The notes beneath the pieces are model-generated. The model searched no databases and was not told the origin of the DNA. It was given only the letters and a program-made list of their open reading frames with translations. Both the position numbers and the translations under genes were made by a program. 47,165 bases of DNA, from IMG/VR virus record IMGVR_UViG_3300020183_000135, positions 1 to 47,165 of that record, one strand, 5' to 3'. Source of the stretch: a virus. Shown one piece after another: positions 8,386-46,311 of this stretch; position 1 is the first letter of the stretch; each line of letters starts with the position of its first letter.

Positions 8386-10410
8386 TTATTTCTTAAGTTC
8401 TGCTATTTGCTTATCGACATCTTTAATTTGTTTTGTTTTTGCAGCGACTACTGCGAACCCAGCTGGACCTGTTAAAAGAGCTTGTCTTCTTTGTTTCTCT
8501 AGGTCTTCTTTCTTTTTTTGAAGTTCCTCTATTTTTGCTTTTTTCGATTCATTACTTCGCTTTGAATCTTCTTGACCTCCTCCCACATTAAAAGAAGGTA
8601 AATTAAACCCAAATTTAGAAATTATAGAAGCTATCTTTTTTCGAACCCTTTCTCTTAGTTTCTTTCCTCCTTGAGACTTATTAATGTAAGCATTGAGTCC
8701 TATGCCTTTATTTTCGTCTTCGTTATTTGGATCATCCAAGGTATCTCCTTGTAAAGAAATATCAAATTTGTCGCTCAAGTTAGATTCTTCAATGCTTATT
8801 TCGTTGTCTTCTAAAAAGTTTGTAGACTCGTTGATCGCGACTAATTCTTGAGAATCTACAGAAACACTACTAGGATTTACTAGTTTTTTAGATACTAAAA
8901 GCGCCTTCACTTCTTCTATTATAATTCTATCGTCACTTGCAAAAGTTGGAGTAGAACTCGCCACTAAAATGTTAGCCATATTCAGTGCTACGCCGTATCT
9001 TCTTTTTAAAGATATACCTTCGTCTGTTAATTGTTCTGTGATTATTTTAATAAAATAAGAATTATTCCTGTCTCCAAAGGTTAATTTTTTATCGTTTTTA
9101 TTTTTTTCGTAGTTATCCTTAAAATTTTTTAAAATCTTAGAAGTATTTTCTAGATCTTCCACTGTTTTCTTTAGATCCTTAACTATTTCTGGATCGGCGT
9201 TATCGCAGCTTTCTAAATTGAGAATTATTATTTTTAAGTATACGAGTACTTCATCTATTTGAGAAATAGTATAAGCGACTATGCTTAAACTTCTAGTTAA
9301 AATTACGTTTAGTTGTCTTAATCTCTTTAATAAATTATCTATTAATTTATCTAATTTAGTAGTAGTAGTGTCTTGTATTATTATATTCAATCCTACAGTA
9401 GTAAAAGCGTTGGGAACAGGACTTAAAATAGCCAGTATAATTTGCCTAACTCTCTTAAACAGAGTAAGTCCAGTAATCAACCTCTTAACTAGTGTTTGTA
9501 ACCTTCTTATTATAGACAATAAAAAATTAGCTTGATTTTGTACATTAACGCAAGCTTTTTGTATATTTTTTACGAATGGAAGTAATTTTTCTGGTTTTAC
9601 TATTTTATTTATTTTGTTTAAGTCTTCTTGAACTTTAGCTGGTAAAAAACTCAATCCTGAGGATAATAAAAATGCAGGATTATTTGGGTTTATTATCTGT
9701 ATAGTAATCAAAACTCCTCTTATTTTGCTTACTGTAGATTTTATTTTTTCGTATTTTTTATTGCTTATTATCGTAAAATTTGTATACCTGCCGAAAGATT
9801 GCACGGAATCAAATAAAAATTGCAAAAGCGTTTGTAATACAGCTAATTTTACAATTTTTTTAATGTTTTCATCGTCAGATTGTAAAACTTGTTGTAATTT
9901 TTTTTGAATTTGTGCGTCTACTACGACTTGTAACTGTTGACACGTCAGAAACAACGCGTTTTTTGCGTTGATGTCTTTCGAGTCTCCAAATTCAGAAAAA
10001 TACGAATCTATAATCTTTTGGGCATCATACGCTCCATCTTGTATACTTGATAAAAAGGTTTCAAATTGCGTTTTAGGTCTGGATTCTTCAGTCGCAGAAT
10101 CAGCTTTGGGATTAGATCCATCTTTTTTTTGGGCTGATTGAGGTATATTTTTTACTACGTTAGGTACTTTGTTAACAACGTAACTTAATACGTTACACAA
10201 ATCTATCTCCGATACTTCTCTTACTATTGGTACTAACCCCCTATCTAATGGATTTTTATACTTTTTTCCTGGGGAAAGCGGCCGGCCTTCAAAAACCTTT
10301 TCTACAACCTCTTGTATTTTGTCCATAGAATCGCTAACCAAAAGAACAGCTCTCTCTATTCCATCGGCTTGCTTTTGTTGTTCTTCGCTATTTTTAAAAT
10401 TTATAGGCAC
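8386..10410 (-). CDS. Large helical structural protein of unknown function
   Basis: A 674-residue, mainly alpha-helical, Lys/Ile/Leu-rich protein. Several long hydrophobic or amphipathic helices occupy about residues 150-400. An acidic spacer follows (about 530-580). The C-terminal coiled coil (about 620-674) includes a short Gly/Ala-rich patch, TGPAGFAVVAAKTKQ. The frame opens with GTG within a TAGTG overlap with the 138-aa gene, so it is coupled to the spike genes. Length and helicity would suit a tape-measure or hub-associated protein, but it lies after the spike rather than before it, and I do not recognise the family. A virion role is inferred from the operon. Confidence 0.6.
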   Translation of the reverse strand: MPINFKNSEEQQKQADGIERAVLLVSDSMDKIQEVVEKVFEGRPLSPGKKYKNPLDRGLVPIVREVSEIDLCNVLSYVVNKVPNVVKNIPQSAQKKDGSNPKADSATEESRPKTQFETFLSSIQDGAYDAQKIIDSYFSEFGDSKDINAKNALFLTCQQLQVVVDAQIQKKLQQVLQSDDENIKKIVKLAVLQTLLQFLFDSVQSFGRYTNFTIISNKKYEKIKSTVSKIRGVLITIQIINPNNPAFLLSSGLSFLPAKVQEDLNKINKIVKPEKLLPFVKNIQKACVNVQNQANFLLSIIRRLQTLVKRLITGLTLFKRVRQIILAILSPVPNAFTTVGLNIIIQDTTTTKLDKLIDNLLKRLRQLNVILTRSLSIVAYTISQIDEVLVYLKIIILNLESCDNADPEIVKDLKKTVEDLENTSKILKNFKDNYEKNKNDKKLTFGDRNNSYFIKIITEQLTDEGISLKRRYGVALNMANILVASSTPTFASDDRIIIEEVKALLVSKKLVNPSSVSVDSQELVAINESTNFLEDNEISIEESNLSDKFDISLQGDTLDDPNNEDENKGIGLNAYINKSQGGKKLRERVRKKIASIISKFGFNLPSFNVGGGQEDSKRSNESKKAKIEELQKKKEDLEKQRRQALLTGPAGFAVVAAKTKQIKDVDKQIAELKK

Positions 10411-33900: not shown

Positions 33901-34525
33901 ACAACTTCTCATAGAGCATCAACTCTTTACTCCCATAAGAAGCACTCTCACCGAAGGCATCAAATCTCCCAGTGGTAACATGATAGTCAGCGGTCAGGTT
34001 CAAGCGTGCGACAAGCCAAACGCCAACATGAGAATATATCCTTACGAAACCCTGTACGTACAGGTGGAGAGGTACGTACATGGACCTATAAAGGAGAATA
34101 GGGCGCTGGGAGAATTGGACCACCCGGAGTCTTCCGTGATCAACTTAAAGAACGTTTCTCACAATATCCTCAAGCTTTGGTGGGACGGTAAGAACCTGTA
34201 CGGAGACATAGAGATACTTCCGACCCCTTCGGGCAACATAGTCAAGGCGCTATTTCAGAATAACATAACGGTAGGCATATCCTCAAGGGCGATGGGCAGC
34301 ACCACTCCGATAGGAGAGGGACTTGTTAGGGTGGAAGAGGACTTGGAAATTATATGCTGGGATTTCGTGTCCCAACCGAGCACTTACGGAGCGTACATGA
34401 AACCCGTATCAGGGCTAAACGAATCTGTAGAGATCTCCGCTAAGCTGCACTCTAAGCAACAGAAGATCAATAGGCTCTTCTCGGATATCATGTGTTCTAT
34501 GGGAAACCAATGTTGTATTAGGTAA
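33893..34525 (+). CDS. 21: Prohead core protease (gp21)
   Basis: A 210-residue serine protease of the T4 gp21 family (fold of herpesvirus assemblins). The catalytic His is in 'GELDHPESS' (about residue 75), with the family-typical block 'NVSHNILKLWWDG' after it. The Ser is in 'VGISSRAMGS' (about 129), followed by 'DFVSQPSTYGAYM'. T4 gp21 cleaves scaffold, capsid and internal proteins after (L/I)xE, a pattern repeated in many neighbouring proteins here. It begins with its own leader-like 'MSKQLLIEHQLF'. Its end overlaps the convergent GIY-YIG gene by eight nt. The major capsid gene does not follow. Confidence 0.92.
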   Translation: MSKQLLIEHQLFTPIRSTLTEGIKSPSGNMIVSGQVQACDKPNANMRIYPYETLYVQVERYVHGPIKENRALGELDHPESSVINLKNVSHNILKLWWDGKNLYGDIEILPTPSGNIVKALFQNNITVGISSRAMGSTTPIGEGLVRVEEDLEIICWDFVSQPSTYGAYMKPVSGLNESVEISAKLHSKQQKINRLFSDIMCSMGNQCCIR

Positions 34526-35006
34526 TCACTTCCCTCGCCTCTTCGCAAACTCCTTCGACGTCTCGTCTAAAAAACTTACCGAGAATGTTCACGTTGTAAG
34601 ATTTTGGAGAACAAAGCACATCGTACTGTAGCTGCCACAGCATTTCGAAGTACGTGAGCTGCTTGGAGCTAAAACAGAACTGCAAGATCCTCTTTTCAAA
34701 GGAACATTCGCCCAAAGATTTGACGTCGTCCTTGAGCTCCTGGTTACTCCCCCAGTAGTCCTTCCAATTCGACTCCTTTACCTCTTTCTTTTTCTTTGGA
34801 ACTCTGCCCGGTTTGGACCACTCGGAGATCTCTTTTTTAGTGAGTTTTTTACTCAAATTGTTTCTGAGGATCTTCTTACCCACATAGAACTTACCGCTCT
34901 CCTTGTTTGTGATGATGTAAACGAACCCGTGAGTCTTTTCTGGGAACTGTGAAATGTCTGTGTAGGGGGTGATATTACCCTCCTTGTCTTGTCGAAACCA
35001 ATCCAT
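34518..35006 (-). CDS. GIY-YIG-type endonuclease-like protein
   Basis: A 162-residue protein. Its 'GFVYIITNKESGKFYVGKK' (about residues 27-45) is a good GIY-YIG core in variant form (VYI...YVG). A Lys-rich loop follows, then 'WKDYWGSNQELKDDV' and a C-terminal 'LTYFEMLWQLQYDVL' with the catalytic-type Glu. T4-like phages carry several such stand-alone nucleases, some homing and some involved in host DNA breakdown. No obvious DNA-binding C-terminal module is present. It converges on gp21 with an eight-nt overlap, so it may have been inserted here. Confidence 0.75.
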   Translation of the reverse strand: MDWFRQDKEGNITPYTDISQFPEKTHGFVYIITNKESGKFYVGKKILRNNLSKKLTKKEISEWSKPGRVPKKKKEVKESNWKDYWGSNQELKDDVKSLGECSFEKRILQFCFSSKQLTYFEMLWQLQYDVLCSPKSYNVNILGKFFRRDVEGVCEEAREVIT

Positions 35007-36976: not shown

Positions 36977-37237
36977 CTACTGTTGCGGCTCTTCATCGGA
37001 CTCAGAGTCTTCCTTGAGTTCCTTCTTAGTGTTTATGAACTTATCTACAGACGCTATTCCTAGGGATCCTAAGGTGAGAATGAGAAAGGAGTTGAATATG
37101 AACTCGTTCACTACTAGCTCTTTCCCCAAATACCCCGTAATGATATCAGCTATAGCAAATAAGATCATCATCACGAGAGATATGAATCCCGCCACAGACT
37201 TTTCGTTTATGTGGTTGTTATCTTCGAATAGTTTCAT
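36977..37237 (-). CDS. Two-span holin (putative)
   Basis: An 86-residue protein. There are two hydrophobic spans, about residues 14-37 ('VAGFISLVMMILFAIADIIT' onward) and about 44-63 ('FIFNSFLILTLGSLGIASV'). They are joined by a short loop, with a charged, acidic C-terminal tail. This is the profile of class II-type holins. Its ATG overlaps the endolysin stop (one nt), giving an endolysin-holin-lipoprotein order. The holin would time lysis by permeabilising the inner membrane so that the endolysin can reach the wall. Function is inferred from topology and neighbour. Confidence 0.75.
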   Translation of the reverse strand: MKLFEDNNHINEKSVAGFISLVMMILFAIADIITGYLGKELVVNEFIFNSFLILTLGSLGIASVDKFINTKKELKEDSESDEEPQQ

Positions 37238-37830
37238 TACTTGAGCAAATTGTAGTATTCGTTAAAGTGTTTCTGGCGGTCAGGAAGACCTATCGTTCCA
37301 CCGTTCACGCACTTCGTAACCGACACCACACTCGCGTCAGTAGCGTCCTTGCACCTAAACAAACAGTGCCTGTGAAAAAACCAAGCCGCTGAAAGCAGCG
37401 GATACTTCGTAGCAATAAGATCAGGGAACTGGAGGATATTTTCAGTCACCACTTTATCGAACTGTGTGTAGTTGTTCTTACCCGTAAGTTGTATGTATCC
37501 CCTTCCCCTGTATCTGTAACCTTCTCCGGAAACTTCAGGACCGTTACCCATGCGATTACCGTAAACTAAGTTTGCTATTTTTTCTGGCTTTCTCTCGTAT
37601 AGTTTTGCTTTATTGGGATCGGGGAAATATTTCTTGAACATCGCCAAGAGGCCCTTTGCGCTGTAGTTTAAATTCTCGGTTGTTAGTCTAAAGCCACCGC
37701 TTTCGTGACCGCACTGAGAGAGGAAGTGAGCTAACTTTACTGGAGTATTGAATTCGAATTTCTGGATTACTTCTGGAATCTGAGCTATTACGTTATCTGG
37801 AATGTGACCCTTTAACTTGTTTATGTCCAT
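37237..37830 (-). CDS. Endolysin, GH19 chitinase-like lysozyme
   Basis: A 197-residue glycoside hydrolase family 19 protein. 'FLSQCGHESGGF' (about residues 37-48) holds the catalytic Glu. 'ENLNYSAKGLLAMFKKYFP' and 'EGYRYRGRGYIQLTGKNNY' (about 100-118) are classic GH19 phage-lysin blocks. It cleaves the peptidoglycan glycan backbone. It has no signal peptide, so it needs the adjoining holin. It heads a unit with an ATATTTAT box 20 nt upstream. Length is typical for a single-domain GH19 endolysin. Confidence 0.92.
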   Translation of the reverse strand: MDINKLKGHIPDNVIAQIPEVIQKFEFNTPVKLAHFLSQCGHESGGFRLTTENLNYSAKGLLAMFKKYFPDPNKAKLYERKPEKIANLVYGNRMGNGPEVSGEGYRYRGRGYIQLTGKNNYTQFDKVVTENILQFPDLIATKYPLLSAAWFFHRHCLFRCKDATDASVVSVTKCVNGGTIGLPDRQKHFNEYYNLLK

Positions 37831-37864: not shown

Positions 37865-39307
37865 TTATTGAGTGGAGTGAGATAGATTCACGTCTCCTAA
37901 TACGCAATACTTTATATTTTGAGTCAAGTTACTTGTACCCAAGTTTATCGTAAAGAAGGAAACAGGGTATATAGAGGAAAAATTTGCTCTAGTTATATTA
38001 TCGTAATCAGTGGGTTCGAACCAAAGTACTTTAAAAATAAGTTTAGATCCAAGGGTGTGAGCGAGTATTAGATAAGCATCACCTAAATCTACTACGCCAT
38101 CCATGTTAACGTCTGCTGCTTTCCACTGTTTGGTGTGTGTCATGACCAACCCCAGAGCAGTTTGATTGGGAGTGCTTTCGTTCAGAATCTCTCCAAATAC
38201 CAAGTCGAAATCCGTAGATGTTACGCCCTGAACTGGCATCGATGGGACCAGTTTATAAGTTGCGTTCTGAATTGGTAGCGTGAAAGTGTAGTTACCGCTT
38301 GCGTCCACGTTCTTGTAATCTATTAAAGTGTCAGTTCCGTTTACGATTCTGTAAAGAGTTAATAACGGTCTGGATGTTAGAGATGCGGGGATAGATACTG
38401 TACCGCTTAACGTATTGGTAATGGCCACTGTATTCGTTGTGTTCGCAGTGTAAAATCCTGTGAAAGTGGCGTCCTGTGGATTCGACCACGTACCAAACTC
38501 TACTATGTACGGATTGGAAAAATTAGAGGTGCCAGGTAAATCGTTCCAACAGCTACCACCGTTCCATTTAGTCACAGCAAAGTCTTCGTCCCCAGCGTTG
38601 TTAGGTTCACCCGTACACCAGTTATTGTATTGCCCAGAAACGTTTCCAGTCAATTGACCGTTTGCGGTTTTTATCAGAGTTCCGTTTTCTGGACCAGCAT
38701 CTATCCTCCAGTAACCCTCTTGAGCCCTATCTGTAAGGGCGAACCATATATTGTTTTGCGGTACGTTAGATATGATGAAACTTTCTTCGTTGGAAGACGT
38801 TATAGTCACCAAGTATCCAGTTTGACCCTTGAAAGTCTGTTGAGCGCTCAACGCCTTAGCGTTATCGTACGTAGCACCAGCAGATACCGGTCTGTAAAAG
38901 TGACCGTTAATGGCGTTGTAGTAGTATCCAGAAGGATTAAGCGTCGCTGATATAGATATCTGGGCGTTTCCCAGAGTCGCACCGGTGTTCACCTTCAGCG
39001 TAGAGAGAGCGTTGTTTATATTTGCCATGGTTCCCGTAAAGCTTACGCGGGTGATGCTGGACCACGAAGAGTAACCCGTTGCTCTTGTCAATCCAGTCGT
39101 GGTAAGGATGCTAAAAGTGGTACCAGACGGGGGATTAATGAGACCGACCGAAGCCAATAATATGTCAGACGCTCCAAACCCGCTTATTACGAAACCGCTA
39201 GCATCCTGCCCGCTTACGCTTGCTTGGTAAGTCCTACCAGGTGGGGCTGTTATGGATTGACCCAACCCAACCAAAGGAAACAACACTATGACTACAAAAA
39301 GTCTCAT
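37865..39307 (-). CDS. Exported C-type-lectin / dockerin-like protein
   Basis: A 480-residue secreted protein with a signal peptide (about residues 1-16, ending GLGQ). Residues about 134-271 are a C-type-lectin-like domain: 'YDNAKALSAQQTFKGQTGYL', 'WFALTDRAQEGYWRIDAG', 'CTGEPNNAGDEDFA' and 'CWNDLPG'. These include the EPN carbohydrate-type motif. An Ig-like carboxypeptidase-regulatory unit follows, then a dockerin-like calcium loop 'ADVNMDGVVDLGDAYLIL' (about 397-415). The chain ends at 'LGDVNLSHSTQ', exactly where the paralogous 630-aa protein carries on into cohesin-like and T9SS domains. It probably binds glycans at the cell surface. Its start overlaps the nuclease stop (ATGA). Confidence 0.78.
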   Translation of the reverse strand: MRLFVVIVLFPLVGLGQSITAPPGRTYQASVSGQDASGFVISGFGASDILLASVGLINPPSGTTFSILTTTGLTRATGYSSWSSITRVSFTGTMANINNALSTLKVNTGATLGNAQISISATLNPSGYYYNAINGHFYRPVSAGATYDNAKALSAQQTFKGQTGYLVTITSSNEESFIISNVPQNNIWFALTDRAQEGYWRIDAGPENGTLIKTANGQLTGNVSGQYNNWCTGEPNNAGDEDFAVTKWNGGSCWNDLPGTSNFSNPYIVEFGTWSNPQDATFTGFYTANTTNTVAITNTLSGTVSIPASLTSRPLLTLYRIVNGTDTLIDYKNVDASGNYTFTLPIQNATYKLVPSMPVQGVTSTDFDLVFGEILNESTPNQTALGLVMTHTKQWKAADVNMDGVVDLGDAYLILAHTLGSKLIFKVLWFEPTDYDNITRANFSSIYPVSFFTINLGTSNLTQNIKYCVLGDVNLSHSTQ

Positions 39308-39930
39308 CTAAACTTGAATCCAGTAAGTTTTTCTATTTCTTCTACGCTTGTTTTGTTATTTTCCAACCCATCAGCCTTGCTCGTATCGTTGTTGAAAAGG
39401 TACGCAAACCACTGGTTGGTACCCTTAACATAAATAACTTTCCAACACTGTTTGGGAATAGATACCCTTCCTATTTTTTTAATTTCCCCAAAAGATCCGC
39501 ACCACACTTTAGTAGAATCGTTTTTTATAGCAATATCTCTAACAACCACTTCCAAAGACTTCCAGTCTCCCCTATTGAGAGCGGGATATTGAGCAGTCAT
39601 GTTAGTAAAGTAAAAAGATTGCTCGTTCGATACCCGATCGCACGCTGCGTCTGCAGCAGGAAAGTTGTGACCTCGATCGAATCCACTATTTGTGTAATCG
39701 CTTTGCAAATTGCTTTCTTTTGCTATTCCAGGATCTGGAATGAACTTGTCTTCTCTCTTGACTTTAATATCACAAATTAAGCTATTCTTTGTTATCCACC
39801 ACTCTACTTTTACTGGGTAACACTTAATTTTGTCAAAAGTTGTAGAATATGCCTTGTAATGCAAGGTCACCGTATCCTGAGCTTTGGCAGATGCGCAAAT
39901 AACGAAAAATGCGAGTAATAGTTTTTTCAT
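39304..39930 (-). CDS. Exported DNA/RNA non-specific endonuclease (NUC1 family)
   Basis: A 208-residue secreted nuclease. The signal peptide is 'MKKLLLAFFVICASAKAQ'. The beta-beta-alpha-metal core has 'FDRGHNFPAADA' (DRGH general base, about residues 84-87), 'FYFTNMTAQ' and 'LNRGDWKSLE' with the metal-binding Asn (about 118). Later blocks, 'KVWCGSF' and 'QCWKVIYVK', are typical of NucA/EndoG relatives. It would degrade DNA or RNA in the periplasm or outside the cell. Coupled at both ends by ATGA overlaps to the barrel and lectin genes, it belongs to a single exported-protein operon. Confidence 0.88.
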   Translation of the reverse strand: MKKLLLAFFVICASAKAQDTVTLHYKAYSTTFDKIKCYPVKVEWWITKNSLICDIKVKREDKFIPDPGIAKESNLQSDYTNSGFDRGHNFPAADAACDRVSNEQSFYFTNMTAQYPALNRGDWKSLEVVVRDIAIKNDSTKVWCGSFGEIKKIGRVSIPKQCWKVIYVKGTNQWFAYLFNNDTSKADGLENNKTSVEEIEKLTGFKFR

Positions 39931-41306
39931 AGGTTAATTTTTGATCCTACTAGTAAAAACGATAGTATTGGAAACTCTGGGTTTGTTGAAACGTTTGCTT
40001 TATAGTTTACGTTGAATTTAAACCTTTTGGTTAGTTGGTAATCTAAACCGCTACCCAAGAAACCGCTAAACGTCCTATCGGTCGTGGTTATTTGGTCCTT
40101 TGAAGAGTAAATCAAAGGGGTGGAAATGATGTATATCTCTGGGGATAGAGTAAGCCTCTTTCCCGCTCTTAGCGGTTTAGTGTAAAACGCTGTGAAAGAT
40201 GGGGATAGGTAAGTGTTATCCTCTTCTGAAACGAGAGTGCCAGCAGCGCTCAGATTAAACCCAGTAACACCCCACTTATCCGCGTTGAGTATACCACTAT
40301 ACCCAAAGAATGCTAACACGTTTCCGTAAGTGTAAACGCCAGTCAGACTAACGTTGTGAATGTATTTTAGAGATCCGCTCTTTGAGAAGTGCATCTTAGT
40401 AAATCTACCAGACAACGCGAACTGCTTAAAGTTTAGCCAAGTCATGCTTGTTAGACCCCAACTTGAGGCTCCTGTCATTGAGGACCTCGATATGCCCAAA
40501 TTTAGGATCGGAGTGAAAGATTTATCTAAGTTTTGCGCAGTGGTTAAGTCGGATTGCACTATTACAGGATTGCTTCTAGAGTTACCGCTCTTACCTCCCT
40601 TGCTACTTTTGCCTCCTCCGCCCCCTTCTTTCTCTTGTTTTGAATCGCTATTCATAGTCGTAGTCGTCGCAACTTCCTCTCCCGCTTCTGAATTTTTATT
40701 ACCAGAGTTTGAATTAGTAGCACCACTAGCGTTACCGCCGACACCAGACCCACCGCTAGCATCACTAGTATTATTCCCGCTTCCATTGCCAGTGCCTGTA
40801 GAATTTTTAGTATTACTTGAAGTGCTTGTATTATTTCCAGTATTATTGTTTGCATTTTTTTCGTTTTTTAATTTTTTTTCCGAAGAAGAATTGTTACCTT
40901 TAGAAGCAGCATCAGTCGCTCCACTCACAGAAGTTGAAGTAGAAGAAGAAGCTGATTGCGCTTGACTCATTATGCTACCAACAACGCTTTGTACTGTTCC
41001 GCTTATAGCTTGAGATACTATTTGGTTTTGAGTGACTTGCCCCGATTGTTGGGAGCACGGAGCAACTTTTCTGTATTCCGCGTAAACTTGATTGACCCAA
41101 GAGGAGAACGCTCCGCTCAAAACGTCAGATGAACTGAATTGCCTAGATTGACCTAGGAAAAATACCACAGTACCTGAGGCAGGAATAGAAAAGAACGTTA
41201 TTTGTTTTGTGCAGGGATCTACGAATTGGTGAGTGAGTACTTGACCCTCGCTCTTCAAACTACAGAGAACGAAAAACCAAGCGCTTAAAATAATTTTTTG
41301 CCACAT
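39927..41306 (-). CDS. Outer-membrane beta-barrel protein with long Asn/Ser/Gly insert
   Basis: A 459-residue exported protein. A signal peptide (about 1-21, ending SEGQ) is followed by a small domain with two Cys (C32 and C83). Residues about 117-245 are a low-complexity Ser/Asn/Thr/Gly region with a Lys/Gly patch. Residues about 250-459 are amphipathic strands alternating with turns ('WGLTSMTWLNFKQFALSG', 'RFKFNVNYKANVS'), as in 8-12-strand outer-membrane barrels. The chain ends 'FLLVGSKINL'. It is three nt downstream of the CsgG-like gene, so the two may form one secretion or display unit. Family not identified; barrel assignment is from strand periodicity. Confidence 0.6.
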   Translation of the reverse strand: MWQKIILSAWFFVLCSLKSEGQVLTHQFVDPCTKQITFFSIPASGTVVFFLGQSRQFSSSDVLSGAFSSWVNQVYAEYRKVAPCSQQSGQVTQNQIVSQAISGTVQSVVGSIMSQAQSASSSTSTSVSGATDAASKGNNSSSEKKLKNEKNANNNTGNNTSTSSNTKNSTGTGNGSGNNTSDASGGSGVGGNASGATNSNSGNKNSEAGEEVATTTTMNSDSKQEKEGGGGGKSSKGGKSGNSRSNPVIVQSDLTTAQNLDKSFTPILNLGISRSSMTGASSWGLTSMTWLNFKQFALSGRFTKMHFSKSGSLKYIHNVSLTGVYTYGNVLAFFGYSGILNADKWGVTGFNLSAAGTLVSEEDNTYLSPSFTAFYTKPLRAGKRLTLSPEIYIISTPLIYSSKDQITTTDRTFSGFLGSGLDYQLTKRFKFNVNYKANVSTNPEFPILSFLLVGSKINL

Positions 41307-41309
41307 TCA

Positions 41310-42053
41310 TTATTTAGGAAACACTCCCTTTTTAATCATTCGAGGTAATATTCGAGCGCAAGCTATGTCAAGTGCTTTCTTAGTTGCTATCGAAACCGTC
41401 GATTGATTGAACTTAACGGGATCTGCTGTGGCGTCTGAGAGTAGAGTCAATTCTCGAGTAGTTTTCGCCTCTCCTAAACCGGAAGCCGCTATGATTTCAC
41501 CCGTTTCCGCGTCAGTGAACCTAACTTGTAAACCCAAACGAGTGACCATCATGTTTTTTACTCCGTCCTTCAAGTTGATCGTCTCGTCTTCTGAAATAGA
41601 CCAATCGTAAACTTCTATGCTAACGAAGTAGTGCGCTAACCTTATCTTTCCCCTACCGTCTAATTTATCTTCGGTGATTCCTGATTGACTCGCTTGAAAC
41701 TGTTTTACCATGCGATTTTTGATCTCTGTCTTGTCCTCCGTGAAAGTAAAACGATTGAGGTTTTCGAGGTATTCTAGGGATATGTTTGCAACGCCCAGAC
41801 CCACTCTTTTCTCTTTGAGTTCAGGATACATTTCGTAAACCTCCTCAGATATACCGCACTTCAAAATCTGAATGGGAATAGTGGGCCCAGAGTAGTCGAG
41901 GTATTGCTGTATGTCTATTGCTCTCTCGAAGGAAGCTTTGTACTCTTCTGTCTTCGTAGTGCCTATCGTTTGACCTTCGGCTTTGTAAGCAGCCAAAGTC
42001 ATAGTTAGGTACCAAAGTACGAATATTGAGGCGTTTCTATTATTACTAATCAT
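41310..42053 (-). CDS. CsgG-like outer-membrane secretion/curli-pore protein
   Basis: A 247-residue exported protein (signal about 1-28, ending AEGQ). The body resembles CsgG, the nonameric outer-membrane channel of curli secretion: 'KRVGLGVANISLEYLEN', then 'LGLQVRFTDAETGEIIAASG' and a C-terminal 'STVSIATKKALDIACARIL' helix. Unlike E. coli CsgG it has no lipobox Cys after the signal. T4-like pelagiphages have been reported to carry CsgG/CsgF-type genes, discussed as a gated lysis or export pore. The frame could open one codon earlier with GTG; ATG 42053 is used. It overlaps the upstream membrane-protein gene by eight nt. Confidence 0.68.
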   Translation of the reverse strand: MISNNRNASIFVLWYLTMTLAAYKAEGQTIGTTKTEEYKASFERAIDIQQYLDYSGPTIPIQILKCGISEEVYEMYPELKEKRVGLGVANISLEYLENLNRFTFTEDKTEIKNRMVKQFQASQSGITEDKLDGRGKIRLAHYFVSIEVYDWSISEDETINLKDGVKNMMVTRLGLQVRFTDAETGEIIAASGLGEAKTTRELTLLSDATADPVKFNQSTVSIATKKALDIACARILPRMIKKGVFPK

Positions 42054-42723
42054 CACCGTTTTTTTTGTTAAACCACTCTTTAATTAAGCCGCACTTTTGA
42101 CACTCGAGTTCTCCGTCGTTGTTACTATCTCCCCAAACGTGCTCGCACTGTCTGTGTTCGAAGTAAAAGTCGATATCCCCGTCTCCGTCCTCGTCTATAC
42201 CGTCCATCACCCCGTCTCCGTCTTCGTCTATTTCGACACCTATTCTTGGTTTAGCGGTTTTGTTTTCTTCTAATTTTGATACTGTGGGTATAACTTCTTC
42301 CTCTTTTTTAAACTCTTCGGCTCTATTGGCTTCAATTAAGTTGATTTCGTGCGCATGATTTGCAGCTTTAACAAACGCATCTGGAATTAGTGGCGTAACA
42401 GATTTATTACTTTCTTTCATATCATTAGTATTTGAAAGAGAAGCACCATCTTCCTCATCCATCTTTTGAACCAACATCTTGTCCTTGTCCGTATCGCTGA
42501 ACCAGTAGTCTATGATCTTACCGTAGCTACCGATAAACGCGCCAAGCATAAGGAGTAAGAGCTCTTTCCACTCTCCAGCTATATCGCTTTTCATCTCTAT
42601 AGCAGCGAAAATGCCTCCTACTATCAAAATAAAAGATCCTAACACCAACGCAGTGATATACCACCTGCGTTTCATCATAGCATTTAATAGGTCTTTGAAA
42701 CCTGTCGATTGTTGCTTATTCAT
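42046..42723 (-). CDS. Two-span membrane protein with calcium-loop and zinc-ribbon tail
   Basis: A 225-residue protein. Two hydrophobic spans (about 21-42 and 52-68, 'ALVLGSFILIVGGIFAAIE' and 'LLLLMLGAFIGSYGKIIDYW') are followed by a charged linker. Then comes a repeated Asp-rich loop 'DEDGDGVMDGIDEDGDGDID' (about 169-188), like thrombospondin-3/EF-type calcium sites. It ends in a Cys/His zinc-ribbon-like tail, 'CEHVW' and 'CQKCG'. The 'WKELLLLMLGAFIGSYGK' span resembles phage holin-like families. It may anchor the export cluster in the inner membrane. Function unknown. Confidence 0.6.
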   Translation of the reverse strand: MNKQQSTGFKDLLNAMMKRRWYITALVLGSFILIVGGIFAAIEMKSDIAGEWKELLLLMLGAFIGSYGKIIDYWFSDTDKDKMLVQKMDEEDGASLSNTNDMKESNKSVTPLIPDAFVKAANHAHEINLIEANRAEEFKKEEEVIPTVSKLEENKTAKPRIGVEIDEDGDGVMDGIDEDGDGDIDFYFEHRQCEHVWGDSNNDGELECQKCGLIKEWFNKKNGDD

Positions 42724-42726
42724 GAT

Positions 42727-43047
42727 TTACCATTGAGGCTCTTTCTCTTTGAATTCGTCTCCCTCTTTTTTCTTCTTGGGAGCTTCTTTTACTACTGGTT
42801 TTTCTACGACTCTCTCGATCACCTTAGTTCCGCCACCAACTGCCTGCGTTTGACTGTTATTATTCTCTACGTTGAGATTAATTACAGGAGCGACTTGTTG
42901 AACTGGAGCGGATTCTTTATCGTCTTCGCCAAAAAGGGTGGTACCTACCCAAGTGCCTGCGCCGAGAACTATGGTGCTGATAGTGCCTATGATGGTCTTT
43001 TTCAGGCCAGACCAAGTGCCATCGTTTTGTTCTAATTCTTCTGACAT
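42727..43047 (-). CDS. Single-span membrane protein with Pro/Lys-rich tail
   Basis: A 106-residue protein with one membrane span (about 16-40, 'KKTIIGTISTIVLGAGTWVG' onward). The tail is Gln/Asn/Val-rich, then Pro/Lys-rich ('EKPVVKEAPKKKKEG'), loosely TonB- or spanin-like in composition. It lies three nt upstream of the calcium-loop membrane protein, so the pair is probably co-translated. If the tail is periplasmic it could reach outer-membrane partners encoded next to it. No family recognised. Confidence 0.55.
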   Translation of the reverse strand: MSEELEQNDGTWSGLKKTIIGTISTIVLGAGTWVGTTLFGEDDKESAPVQQVAPVINLNVENNNSQTQAVGGGTKVIERVVEKPVVKEAPKKKKEGDEFKEKEPQW

Positions 43048-43059
43048 GGTTATTTAATT

Positions 43060-44952
43060 TTAAGCTTTAATAAATTGTTTTGTTAATTTTCTTTGGTTTT
43101 CGTTATCAAGTACCAATAAATAGTTCCCATTTGCTGCTGAGGTTAAATCTACTTGCTTAATCACTGTGGTAACGTATTCGTCGCTAGCCACCCTACCTAT
43201 ATCTTTAATTTTCCTTCCCTGAATGTCATAAACCGTGGCCATAGAAGCCATGTTAGTTCTAGGGAATATCACTACGAGTTCGAAGAACCCGCTGGTAGGA
43301 TTGGGACGGATGGTAGCAGTTATCTCTTTGTTGGATTGGTAGTAAGAGTCGGATCTTTTAGAAGATAAAACAACGTAATCCGAGGCCAAGTTTATGTTAA
43401 AGTGATCCCCGTCCTTATCGCTAGCATCCATCAAGCGTCTCACGTATACGTTTGTCTGCACATCAGCGCTTCCGATGGGAGAGAACTTGAGTTTAAACGG
43501 CGTGTAGTTACCCAAAAGAGATCCGATCTTTTGGTTGTTCATTCCACCGAAGCGAATGATACCGTTAGCGTCGTCGTGAGTCAAGTATTGCAACCAGGGC
43601 CCCTGAATATTGGAAACTATTTCTTCGAATCTCACCTTATTGGGATCGTATTTCATCTCGAACTGCAACCCATCGTTGCTAATTCCGTTTGTGTTGATGT
43701 TAAAATTAGCGTACATTGCCTGTCCAGTAGGAACCGTTACGTTTGGTATGCTCACTTCCATAGTTCCTATATATTTGGCAGCTGCTACTAAGTTACCGTT
43801 AGCGTCGTAAACGGGAGAGGAGTGCGTTCTGTCAACGTCCCCAAGTATGAAGTATTTAATGTCAACGTTTGTCAGGTTAGTCGTACCTACGCTATCGTAA
43901 ATATGAGTTACACCATTTATGTAACTAGGCCAGTTATTCCACTGATTCGCATCTAACACAAGAGAATCGTACGCTCCCCTTCTAAACACGTTTATCAGTT
44001 TAGTGGTGTCTATTGGTTTTAGACCTGAAACAGAAGCATAGATGAGGTAGGGATCGCCTCCGTCAAGAGCTCCGGATTTGTTGATGTCTGCTATCAAGTA
44101 AGCTAACCCGTTCTTCAGGTACTGACGGGTGTAAGCTTGGTTAACGTCTGTAGTGATGTATTCGTCGTATGCTTTTACTGCATCTGACACCGTAACAGCG
44201 TTATCCCTAATCGTGGATAGCGCTCCAGGAAACTTCACTTCCAACTTGTATCTCGTGTTTTCCTCTATATTCTTGAGGGTATACGTGCCGTCTGCAGCCA
44301 CGGTGATAGAATCTACGAAAGAGTTATTATTGGCTTGATAACACAGGATTTGGGGTTTAAGATTTATGCTCGGTCCCAACCACACTTTACCAGATAGCGT
44401 CAAGTTGTTGGATAGCTTCAAAGCGAGCTTTTGATTAACCAATTGAGCGACGTTGTCTCCTATGCTTTTACCGTCGTTCTTAAACATCCTAACCCAGTTT
44501 ACGGTTACGCTATCAGCGAAGTAGTTAGCTGTTACGTTGTTTATCTTGTACTTGTTATGAATGATATATCCGTTAGAGTTTATCGCTCCACCGCTCGGAA
44601 GTACCAAGTAGTTGCGACCTATTACCCAATCGTTATTAGAAACGTAAGTGTAAGTGCCATTAACGTAGTTGTTGTATTTGTAATTTTCCCACGTCTTGTA
44701 TGAAACCGTGGGAGTCATGCCGTTCACAGAAGCATCTACCGTAGTAGATATGTAAGTGAGCAACGCCCTTTTGTATTGCCAATCCACCTGAAATGCGCGA
44801 ATTTCGTTAGAGCCAGGACGATAGTACCAAGCTACATCAAGCGTGTCTCCTCTCTTTATTGTAGAGATGGTCTGAAAGTGTCCTATCTGGGGTGTCTGTG
44901 AAAAAGAAGCAAAACTAATTAGAAGCGCAATGACTAATAATAGTTTTTTCAT
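43060..44952 (-). CDS. Exported dockerin/cohesin-like protein with T9SS sorting domain
   Basis: A 630-residue secreted protein with a signal peptide (1-19, ending ASFSQ). An N-terminal beta region leads to a regulatory-like Ig unit. Next is a split dockerin-like pair, 'ADINKSGALDGGDPYLIYA' (about 286-304) and 'LGDVDRTHS' (about 370). Residues about 395-535 look cohesin-like ('LQFEMKYDPNKVRFEEI', 'PFKLKFSP'). The last 86 residues are a type A T9SS C-terminal domain: 'IRPNPTSGFFELVV', 'VYDIQGRKIKDI' and a final 'KLTKQFIKA'. Hosts with T9SS cleave this tail and attach or release the cargo at the cell surface. A paralogous module is in the lectin protein nearby. Confidence 0.82.
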   Translation of the reverse strand: MKKLLLVIALLISFASFSQTPQIGHFQTISTIKRGDTLDVAWYYRPGSNEIRAFQVDWQYKRALLTYISTTVDASVNGMTPTVSYKTWENYKYNNYVNGTYTYVSNNDWVIGRNYLVLPSGGAINSNGYIIHNKYKINNVTANYFADSVTVNWVRMFKNDGKSIGDNVAQLVNQKLALKLSNNLTLSGKVWLGPSINLKPQILCYQANNNSFVDSITVAADGTYTLKNIEENTRYKLEVKFPGALSTIRDNAVTVSDAVKAYDEYITTDVNQAYTRQYLKNGLAYLIADINKSGALDGGDPYLIYASVSGLKPIDTTKLINVFRRGAYDSLVLDANQWNNWPSYINGVTHIYDSVGTTNLTNVDIKYFILGDVDRTHSSPVYDANGNLVAAAKYIGTMEVSIPNVTVPTGQAMYANFNINTNGISNDGLQFEMKYDPNKVRFEEIVSNIQGPWLQYLTHDDANGIIRFGGMNNQKIGSLLGNYTPFKLKFSPIGSADVQTNVYVRRLMDASDKDGDHFNINLASDYVVLSSKRSDSYYQSNKEITATIRPNPTSGFFELVVIFPRTNMASMATVYDIQGRKIKDIGRVASDEYVTTVIKQVDLTSAANGNYLLVLDNENQRKLTKQFIKA

Positions 44953-45425
44953 AAGATTTTCTCAATTAAGGTTACAATGGTTTTTTTAAGGGCAGAACGA
45001 GCTGTCGCTTGGTTAAAACCACCACCTTCATCGATAATCATAGTAGAAGTAGATATTTCGGAGGACTTACCTGTCGCAACGTATTCTTTCAATCTTTTTT
45101 CTCCTTCGTACAAGGTACCCTTTATTTTTATGATAGTTTCGTTGTCGACCTTGTGAAATACGCTAACACCCGCAGAAGTCTGTTGGATATCGAAGTACAC
45201 TATCTCTAATTCCAATTTGAGAGCTTTAGGATCTTCGCTGAGGCCGTAGCCCCTGTCCTGTATCGCTTCTTCCAAAACGTTCTTAACGCCGAAAGCCAAG
45301 TTCTTGTTTCCAGTCATGGGTCCGATCTTGACTTTGTTCGTAACTTTACTAATCTTTACAAAGGTAGGCTGGGCAAAGCAAAAATTACAGAACAACACTA
45401 GCGCTATTGTCATAATATTTTTCAT
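44949..45425 (-). CDS. Small exported CsgG/DUF4410-like protein
   Basis: A 158-residue exported protein (signal about 1-19, ending CFAQ). The body has 'NKNLAFGVKNVLEEAIQDRG', a long beta hairpin 'ALKLELEIVYFDIQQTS' and a C-terminal helix 'ATARSALKKTIVTLIEKIL'. This layout is similar to small CsgG-like or DUF4410-type periplasmic/outer-membrane proteins. It heads the export operon, and its TGA overlaps the ATG of the T9SS-tailed protein. The frame can open two codons earlier at TTG 45431, but ATG 45425 gives the better signal peptide. Family assignment is tentative. Confidence 0.6.
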   Translation of the reverse strand: MKNIMTIALVLFCNFCFAQPTFVKISKVTNKVKIGPMTGNKNLAFGVKNVLEEAIQDRGYGLSEDPKALKLELEIVYFDIQQTSAGVSVFHKVDNETIIKIKGTLYEGEKRLKEYVATGKSSEISTSTMIIDEGGGFNQATARSALKKTIVTLIEKIL

Positions 45426-45433
45426 ATGCAATC

Positions 45434-45658: not shown

Positions 45659-45722
45659 AAAAGAAACGCTTTCATAGTTATTTGGGAGCTAACTAAATTA
45701 ACTTTATGAGAGCGTTTCTTTT
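45659..45722 (+). promoter_or_regulatory. 18-bp inverted repeat that covers the DUF2490 start codon
   Basis: Arms 45659-45676 and 45705-45722 pair over 18 bp with a single G-U, around a 28-nt loop that holds a small GTTA/TAAC hairpin. The ATG (45706-45708) lies in the right arm, and a T-run follows. It could act as a translation-blocking stem or an attenuator/terminator. Confidence 0.5.
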
Positions 45723-46311
45723 TTTATTGTTACTTTTTTTACTCACTTTTGTTTTTGGGCAAGATGAACAATGGTCAACACTTAATGTTGTTGGAAAGTT
45801 AAGTAAGAACTATACACTTGCTATGGAGGGTGAGCAAAGATATAGTTGGGAAAAGGATTATGTTAGATATTTTCATTACGATGCTGGTTTGATTAGAACA
45901 TTCAATTCACATCTTAAAGTTGGTATTTTTTATAGAGAGATATATGAAATTAAAAATGGAAGGAGAGTAATAGAGTTTAGACCTCATACCGATGCTTTTG
46001 TAACACATGGGAAACATTGGAAATGGAGAGTACGATTGGAATATCAGGGTAAAGAATTTGATGAAGACCTTTTTAGATTCCGAATCAGACCAACATACGA
46101 ATTACACAAATTTAAACAAGCAGACCCATTTATACAAACTGAATTAAACTTTACCAAATATGGATTTACCCGAAATCGTTTTAACACTGGATTAACATTT
46201 CATTGGGGAAAACTAACAACACAACCTGCTTTTCTATTAGAATCCTTAAACAAAGGTGGTAATTGGACAAACGTAACAGCAATTTGGATAAACAATAAGA
46301 TTTCTTTTTAA
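45706..46311 (+). CDS. DUF2490-like outer-membrane beta-barrel protein
   Basis: A 201-residue exported protein with a leucine-rich signal peptide (about 1-18, ending VFGQ). The body is a run of amphipathic strands typical of DUF2490 barrels: 'LAMEGEQRYSWEKDYVRYFH', 'LKVGIFYREIYEIKNG', 'WRVRLEYQGKEF' and 'RFRIRPTYELH', closing with 'GLTFHWGKL'. DUF2490 is widespread in Bacteroidota outer membranes; function unknown. By eye its codons are more A+T-rich than those of the export operon, suggesting a separate, perhaps recent, acquisition from a host. Its start codon is buried in an 18-bp inverted repeat. Confidence 0.78.
   Translation: MRAFLFLLLLFLLTFVFGQDEQWSTLNVVGKLSKNYTLAMEGEQRYSWEKDYVRYFHYDAGLIRTFNSHLKVGIFYREIYEIKNGRRVIEFRPHTDAFVTHGKHWKWRVRLEYQGKEFDEDLFRFRIRPTYELHKFKQADPFIQTELNFTKYGFTRNRFNTGLTFHWGKLTTQPAFLLESLNKGGNWTNVTAIWINNKISF

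Follow-up and report, generated by a model that had tools for sequence, protein, structure and literature searches.

The window analyzed here, a stretch of 47,165 nucleotides (IMG/VR record IMGVR_UViG_3300020183_000135, positions 1–47,165), encodes a 630-aa scaffold protein (43060–44952, minus strand) that ends in a T9SS type A C-terminal sorting domain (CTD). The scaffold is probably (about 0.68) a phage-encoded T9SS cargo that is shown on the infected cell by way of the host T9SS, within a cassette that remodels the host envelope, and hijack of the host T9SS by the window phage is the most likely reading of the locus. The gene was recognized as an open reading frame with TIGR04183 and PF18962 matches and has relatives in 42 IMG/VR viral contigs, and the evidence supports the view that the T9SS type A domain is genuine and that the gene is a phage one.

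The CTD occupies residues 545–630 of the scaffold (43063–43320, minus strand). The first-pass annotation had proposed a T9SS type A domain at this place on the basis of three hallmarks, PNPTSG (residues 550–555), VYDIQGRKI (residues 574–582), and LTKQFIKA (residues 623–630), all of which are present at the C-terminus of the 630-aa ORF, and the interval it gave, 43060–43320, covers the domain together with the stop codon. It had also named a profile search with TIGR04183 and PF18962 as the check, and both models, when run, returned significant matches above their cut-offs and confirmed the domain. TIGR04183 matched residues 549–629 of 630, at the extreme C-terminus (window 43066–43308) with 28.9 bits and an E-value of 8.2e-7 (curated cut-off, 23 bits), and PF18962 matched the same end with 27.2 bits (cut-off, 27 bits). 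When the six frames of the window were searched with TIGR04183, the scaffold CTD was the sole match (32.3 bits, E-value 3.6e-9). CTD scores are modest in the clade of the window phage (24–40 bits), and a TIGR04183 match above the cut-off was detected in all 43 records that contain a scaffold relative. The match to the T9SS type A models exceeds chance by a wide margin.

It is reported that the β3–β4 loop of RgpB (FDMNGRR), with its glycine, is required for secretion, as is the final CTD strand, with its conserved lysine (PMC11285876). The window scaffold has counterparts of both, YDIQGRK for the loop and KQFIKA for the final strand. The [FY]DxxG loop motif is kept in each of the 21 distinct fused CTDs, and so is a lysine among the last six residues (21/21). 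The dN/dS of the CTD, taken from pairs with measurable, diverged dS, is 0.06–0.23, similar to or somewhat above that of the rest of the scaffold, and the domain is therefore maintained. At the N-terminus, a putative Sec signal peptide spanning residues 1–18 (44899–44952, minus strand) was read by inspection as MKKLLLVIALLISFASFS-Q in accordance with the Q-rule, and the Gln19 that comes next is invariant in 18 relatives.

The fold predicted for the C-terminal region also supports the CTD assignment. In the AlphaFold2 model of the scaffold, built on an alignment of 18 relatives with the row of phage immuto left out, the mean pLDDT is low overall (62) and reaches 74–88 across most of residues 541–630, and seven strands are predicted at residues 545–629. 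Residues 540–630 of this predicted model align with the CTD of Porphyromonas gingivalis PorU with a Z-score of 10.6 (VIA-align; 2.4 Å over 89 residues, 22% identity). As for the rest of the protein, which the first-pass annotation had called adhesin-like, that term proved too vague, and the body is better described as a scaffold that comprises two cohesin-like folds along with a dockerin-like loop. The N-terminal cohesin-like fold, residues 19–181 (44410–44898, minus strand), resembles 2vo8 in the AlphaFold2 model with a Z-score of 12.9 (2.8 Å over 132 residues), and the second cohesin-like domain, residues 396–534 (43351–43767, minus strand), resembles 6kgf_A in the predicted model with a VIA Z-score of 14.0 (2.5 Å over 134 residues). 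The Pfam cohesin model PF00963 scored 20.6 bits on the scaffold, under its cut-off of 24.1, and therefore the fold is claimed here rather than family membership. The dockerin-like calcium loop (D-x-N..D-G-G-D), at residues ~279–311 (44020–44118, minus strand), lies in a low-confidence part of the model and is conserved in 25 of 26 sequences.

The scaffold gene belongs to the phage. The window carries a T4-like gp17 terminase, a gp20 portal, a prohead protease, baseplate wedge proteins, a primase, and SbcC, and the scaffold relatives in the 42 viral contigs share 52–79% identity across the protein in the aligned set. The gene sits mid-contig in two 321-kb contigs, L027 and L028, and the cultured Flavobacterium phage immuto encodes a cohesin-CTD protein (TIGR04183, 46.5 bits) within a similar set of neighbors; a tblastn search for a similar CTD in other cultured phages returned immuto alone. 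An origin of the scaffold from a host flank was ruled out by this conservation within long viral contigs and in a cultured phage. L027 and L028 are near-identical, come from different metagenome samples, and contain an extra weak CTD match at 9013–9153 (17.5 bits) in a 712-aa frame. In the window, the prohead protease gene is directly followed by that of a 162-aa protein (34518–35006), which matches both a phage 'NAD synthetase' family and homing endonuclease families in PHROGs.

The host of the window phage is supported to be a Bacteroidota bacterium, as the first-pass annotation had held. Bacteroidota make little use of Shine-Dalgarno sequences, and a Shine-Dalgarno-like core was found upstream of 3 of the 43 window genes, which is no excess. 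The Bacteroidota −7 box (TAnnTTTG) was not enriched upstream of the window genes (4 vs 3.2). Gln stands at the expected cleavage site of all seven exported proteins in and beside the cassette, and the rule of a Gln after the signal peptide is specific to Bacteroidetes (PMC5837995). Among cultured phages, Flavobacterium phage immuto has the closest terminase (56%), and MAG contigs with the cassette fall in a Flavobacterium bin and in another Bacteroidota bin, the binning of phage contigs being weak evidence. The MAG bins that hold related cassettes contain 13–20 CTD matches. The CTD of one species can fail in the T9SS of another (PMC11285876). A 254-kb contig from an uncultured Bacteroidetes MAG (L126), probably a jumbo phage, contains the cassette and, at a distance of about 26 kb, another gene with a T9SS CTD (49 bits).

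Along the minus strand, the scaffold belongs to a cassette with the order YajG-like protein, scaffold, 106-aa protein, 225-aa protein, 248-aa protein, 459-aa barrel protein, nuclease, and lectin. This order recurs in 42 relatives, mostly without the nuclease, and some of the small genes are missing or lost at contig ends. The YajG-like exported protein (Lipoprotein_16; 44949–45431, minus strand) is conserved in position and scored 23.4 bits with PF03923, under the cut-off of 25. The 106-aa protein (42727–43047, minus strand) has one likely membrane stretch and a conserved C-terminal Trp, the 225-aa protein (42046–42723, minus strand) has two likely membrane stretches and may be holin-like, and both are conserved in the cassette. 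The same holds for the 459-aa exported protein (39927–41306, minus strand), in which inspection of the sequence points to a low-complexity linker and a probable C-terminal beta-barrel. The exported DNA/RNA non-specific endonuclease (39304–39930, minus strand; PF01223, 133.9 bits) also stands beside the lectin in immuto and is absent from most other relatives. The 480-aa exported protein that closes the cassette (37865–39307, minus strand) is a C-type lectin (PF00059, 27.2 bits; cut-off, 22.6) with a dockerin-like C-terminus, on which PF00404 scored 14.9 bits, under its cut-off of 22.9; for this dockerin-like end, the loop pattern occurs in 18 of 25, and the lectin is often, not always, part of the cassette. 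An endolysin (37237–37830, minus strand; phrog_181, E-value 1.1e-59) and, on the opposite strand, a DUF2490 protein with a signal peptide (45706–46311), probably an outer-membrane barrel, adjoin the cassette.

The 248-aa exported protein (41310–42056, minus strand) has a CsgG-like fold in Foldseek and VIA comparisons. All of its top fold matches are CsgG (Foldseek E-value 6.8e-7; VIA Z-score 11.4, 4.1 Å over 168 residues), followed by PelC and LptE kin with Z-scores of 8–9. In 18 records, PF03783 gave no match at E-values up to 1, and neither did a PDB sequence search, so identity with CsgG was not adopted by sequence and the assignment is one of fold. At least 503 viral contigs have a member of the family when matched by that gene alone, and the gene nearly always lies near a surface-directed scaffold. 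A cellular homologue with 37% identity was found in an apparently chromosomal Ignavibacteriales locus (L127, 9935–11238), where its neighbors are another paralogue and an exported protein of 825 aa; the locus is a possible source of the phage gene.

In sister phages, the place of the CTD is taken by a separate lipoprotein. Fifty further records were collected with the 248-aa protein as the query, and the CTD exceeded the cut-off in one of them. In most of the others, the scaffold ends directly behind its cohesin, and lipoproteins of 109–126 aa with a lipobox are encoded by the gene or genes that follow. The 87 complete cassettes were collected in two separate searches and are not independent (at 90%, 17 fused and 49 unfused sequence clusters). 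A fused CTD without any lipoprotein is seen in 43 of them, and the other 44 have one or two lipoproteins and lack a CTD, the two anchors being mutually exclusive in 87/87. The protein extends past the cohesin by 1–8 residues in most unfused scaffolds and by 89–95 in most fused ones, and in most unfused cassettes there is one lipoprotein per scaffold gene. In L050, L051, and others, two scaffold genes precede two paralogous lipoproteins, of classes A and B, which stand before the 106-aa gene; single scaffold genes are followed by class C lipoproteins. Mapped on a tree of the 248-aa protein with the CsgG fold, the fused and unfused states change at least five times; given that all fused scaffolds belong to a single family, the changes are most simply explained by recombination that exchanges the scaffold gene. 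Bacteroidetes surface lipoproteins are reported to be exported by a C-X-K-(D/E)2 signal (PMC5080379); of 61 distinct lipoprotein anchors, 48 have Lys at +3 with an acidic residue behind it at +4 to +6, and 12 contain the complete minimal motif. The cassette as such does not require T9SS, since the sister phages get by with no T9SS CTD.

Shared descent of the lipoprotein domain and the CTD is suggested. Sub-threshold matches of the lipoproteins to PF18962 were obtained in 7 of 15 (best E-value 0.0014) and to TIGR04183 in 4 of 15, and DUF3244 was matched as well; in nine of the records with only sub-threshold TIGR04183 matches, such matches fall inside the lipoproteins when the coordinates are mapped by hand. 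A profile comparison of the CTD with the lipoproteins was weak (probability 3–18%), too weak a support for homology to be claimed from it. In class A lipoproteins, Asn replaces the loop Gly, and [FY]DxxG is kept in 0 of 28.

From the computed CTD, fold, motifs, selection, cassette, and lipoprotein exchange, we infer how the scaffold may act. It would be exported by the Sec system of the infected Bacteroidota cell, as its signal peptide with Q at +1 indicates. The host T9SS would then recognize the folded CTD, carry the scaffold across the outer membrane, and fix it to the cell surface, where the displayed part would be a scaffold with two cohesin-like folds. The neighboring C-type lectin may dock on the scaffold by its dockerin-like end, and together the scaffold, the CsgG-fold protein, the beta-barrel protein, and the small membrane proteins would remodel the host envelope. 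The benefit to the phage would most likely be the exclusion of other phages or a changed adhesion of the cell during infection. Two anchors are found in the same place on the same kind of scaffold, which points to a common aim, fixing the scaffold on the outer surface of the infected cell. Both versions have the CsgG-fold, barrel, and small membrane proteins, so the role of these proteins lies in a step for which neither anchor can stand in, perhaps the export or assembly of partners, for example, the lectin.

Instead of a T9SS signal, the C-terminal domain could be an Ig-like module in an envelope assembly that the phage builds itself, with the sister lipoprotein as its counterpart and with export by way of the CsgG-fold protein. 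The CsgG-fold gene is present in both versions of the cassette, and the sister lipoproteins share the gene position and the sub-threshold PF18962 and TIGR04183 matches, as such a module would have it. We nevertheless regard this as unlikely, since the window CTD lies above the cut-offs of the T9SS models, the [FY]DxxG motif kept in all 21 fused CTDs is absent from the 28 class A lipoproteins, with Asn for Gly, and the profiles of the two domains compare so weakly.

The scaffold might also be a virion protein, a tail or decoration adhesin with a borrowed bacterial Ig-like domain; cohesin-like domains are adhesive by fold, and lectin and Ig-like domains are frequent on phage tails. This is quite improbable, because proteins built into virions in the cytoplasm would lack the Sec signal peptides seen on the scaffold and its exported neighbors and the lipobox of the sister anchors, and there is no tail gene within the cassette. 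Least credible is the view that the gene does nothing for the phage, having been picked up lately from a host or lying on host chromosomal DNA fused to the contig. In its favor, Bacteroidota are rich in T9SS proteins, and tRNA genes lie nearby; however, a scan of 84,980 prokaryote genomes confirmed no relative of the scaffold within its sensitivity, the gene is under purifying selection, and the cassette is found in 42 viral contigs, mid-contig in the 321-kb contigs, and in a cultured phage, by which this explanation is largely refuted. A broader proposal is tentative, with the odds somewhat against it: a surface-assembly cassette centered on the CsgG-fold protein may be common in Bacteroidota phages, its scaffold attached by an interchangeable T9SS tag or surface lipoprotein, with a lipoprotein domain that descends from such a tag by loss of the loop glycine and with repeated switching between the two.

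The first-pass annotation knew of no well-described T9SS cargo in phages, but such cargo was described in 2019–2020 (PMC6949934, PMC7468147), and that claim of novelty therefore falls. What is new is the setting, a conserved cassette in which the CTD is swapped for a separate lipoprotein in sister phages; the literature searched yielded neither the conserved scaffold nor the CsgG-fold cassette nor the replacement of the CTD by a lipoprotein, and a paper on the phages of host LMO8 makes no mention of secretion or cohesin (PMC7077304). If the T9SS reading is true, immuto on Flavobacterium sp. LMO8 would offer a tractable test of the use of T9SS by a phage to dress the infected cell. It would also offer a clue to the CsgG-type operons of T4-like phages, which are so far without explanation. 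Counted by the CsgG-fold gene alone, the cassette is widespread, with 503 viral contigs or more.

Like the T9SS type A cargo proteins RgpB and PorU, the scaffold has a signal peptide, a seven-stranded Ig-like CTD, the loop motif, and a terminal lysine; unlike them, it is encoded by a T4-like phage and has cohesin-like folds in its body, and its secretion is a prediction. Cryophage encodes type A CTD proteins, for which T9SS hijack and superinfection exclusion have been proposed (PMC7468147). The cargo of Cryophage consists of endoglucanase, GH39, and PA14 proteins in hypervariable islands, whereas the window has one conserved scaffold in a fixed cassette. Crass-like cluster 2 gut phages encode T9SS-domain proteins near BACON ORFs (PMC6949934); they share with the window phage T9SS sorting domains in a phage genome but differ in having BACON repeats, and no such cassette has been described for them. 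Curli-type csgF/csgG operons, whose role is debated, occur in pelagimyophages and phage Melnitz (PMC7029224, PMC9004378), and the present cassette is likewise a multi-gene envelope cassette of a myophage with a CsgG-fold protein. However, the CsgG-fold protein of the window is not recognized by PF03783, no CsgF was found, and the gene is joined to cohesin-like scaffolds, T9SS-tagged or lipoprotein-anchored, in phages of Bacteroidota. The anchors of the sister phages are like C-X-K-(D/E)2 surface lipoproteins (PMC5080379) in their Lys at +3 and acidic residue at +4 to +6 (48/61) and unlike them in that only 12 of 61 have the full minimal motif. With cellulosome scaffoldins, the scaffold and its lectin share cohesin-like folds and dockerin-like calcium loops, but here both lie below the Pfam cut-offs and no enzymes are involved.
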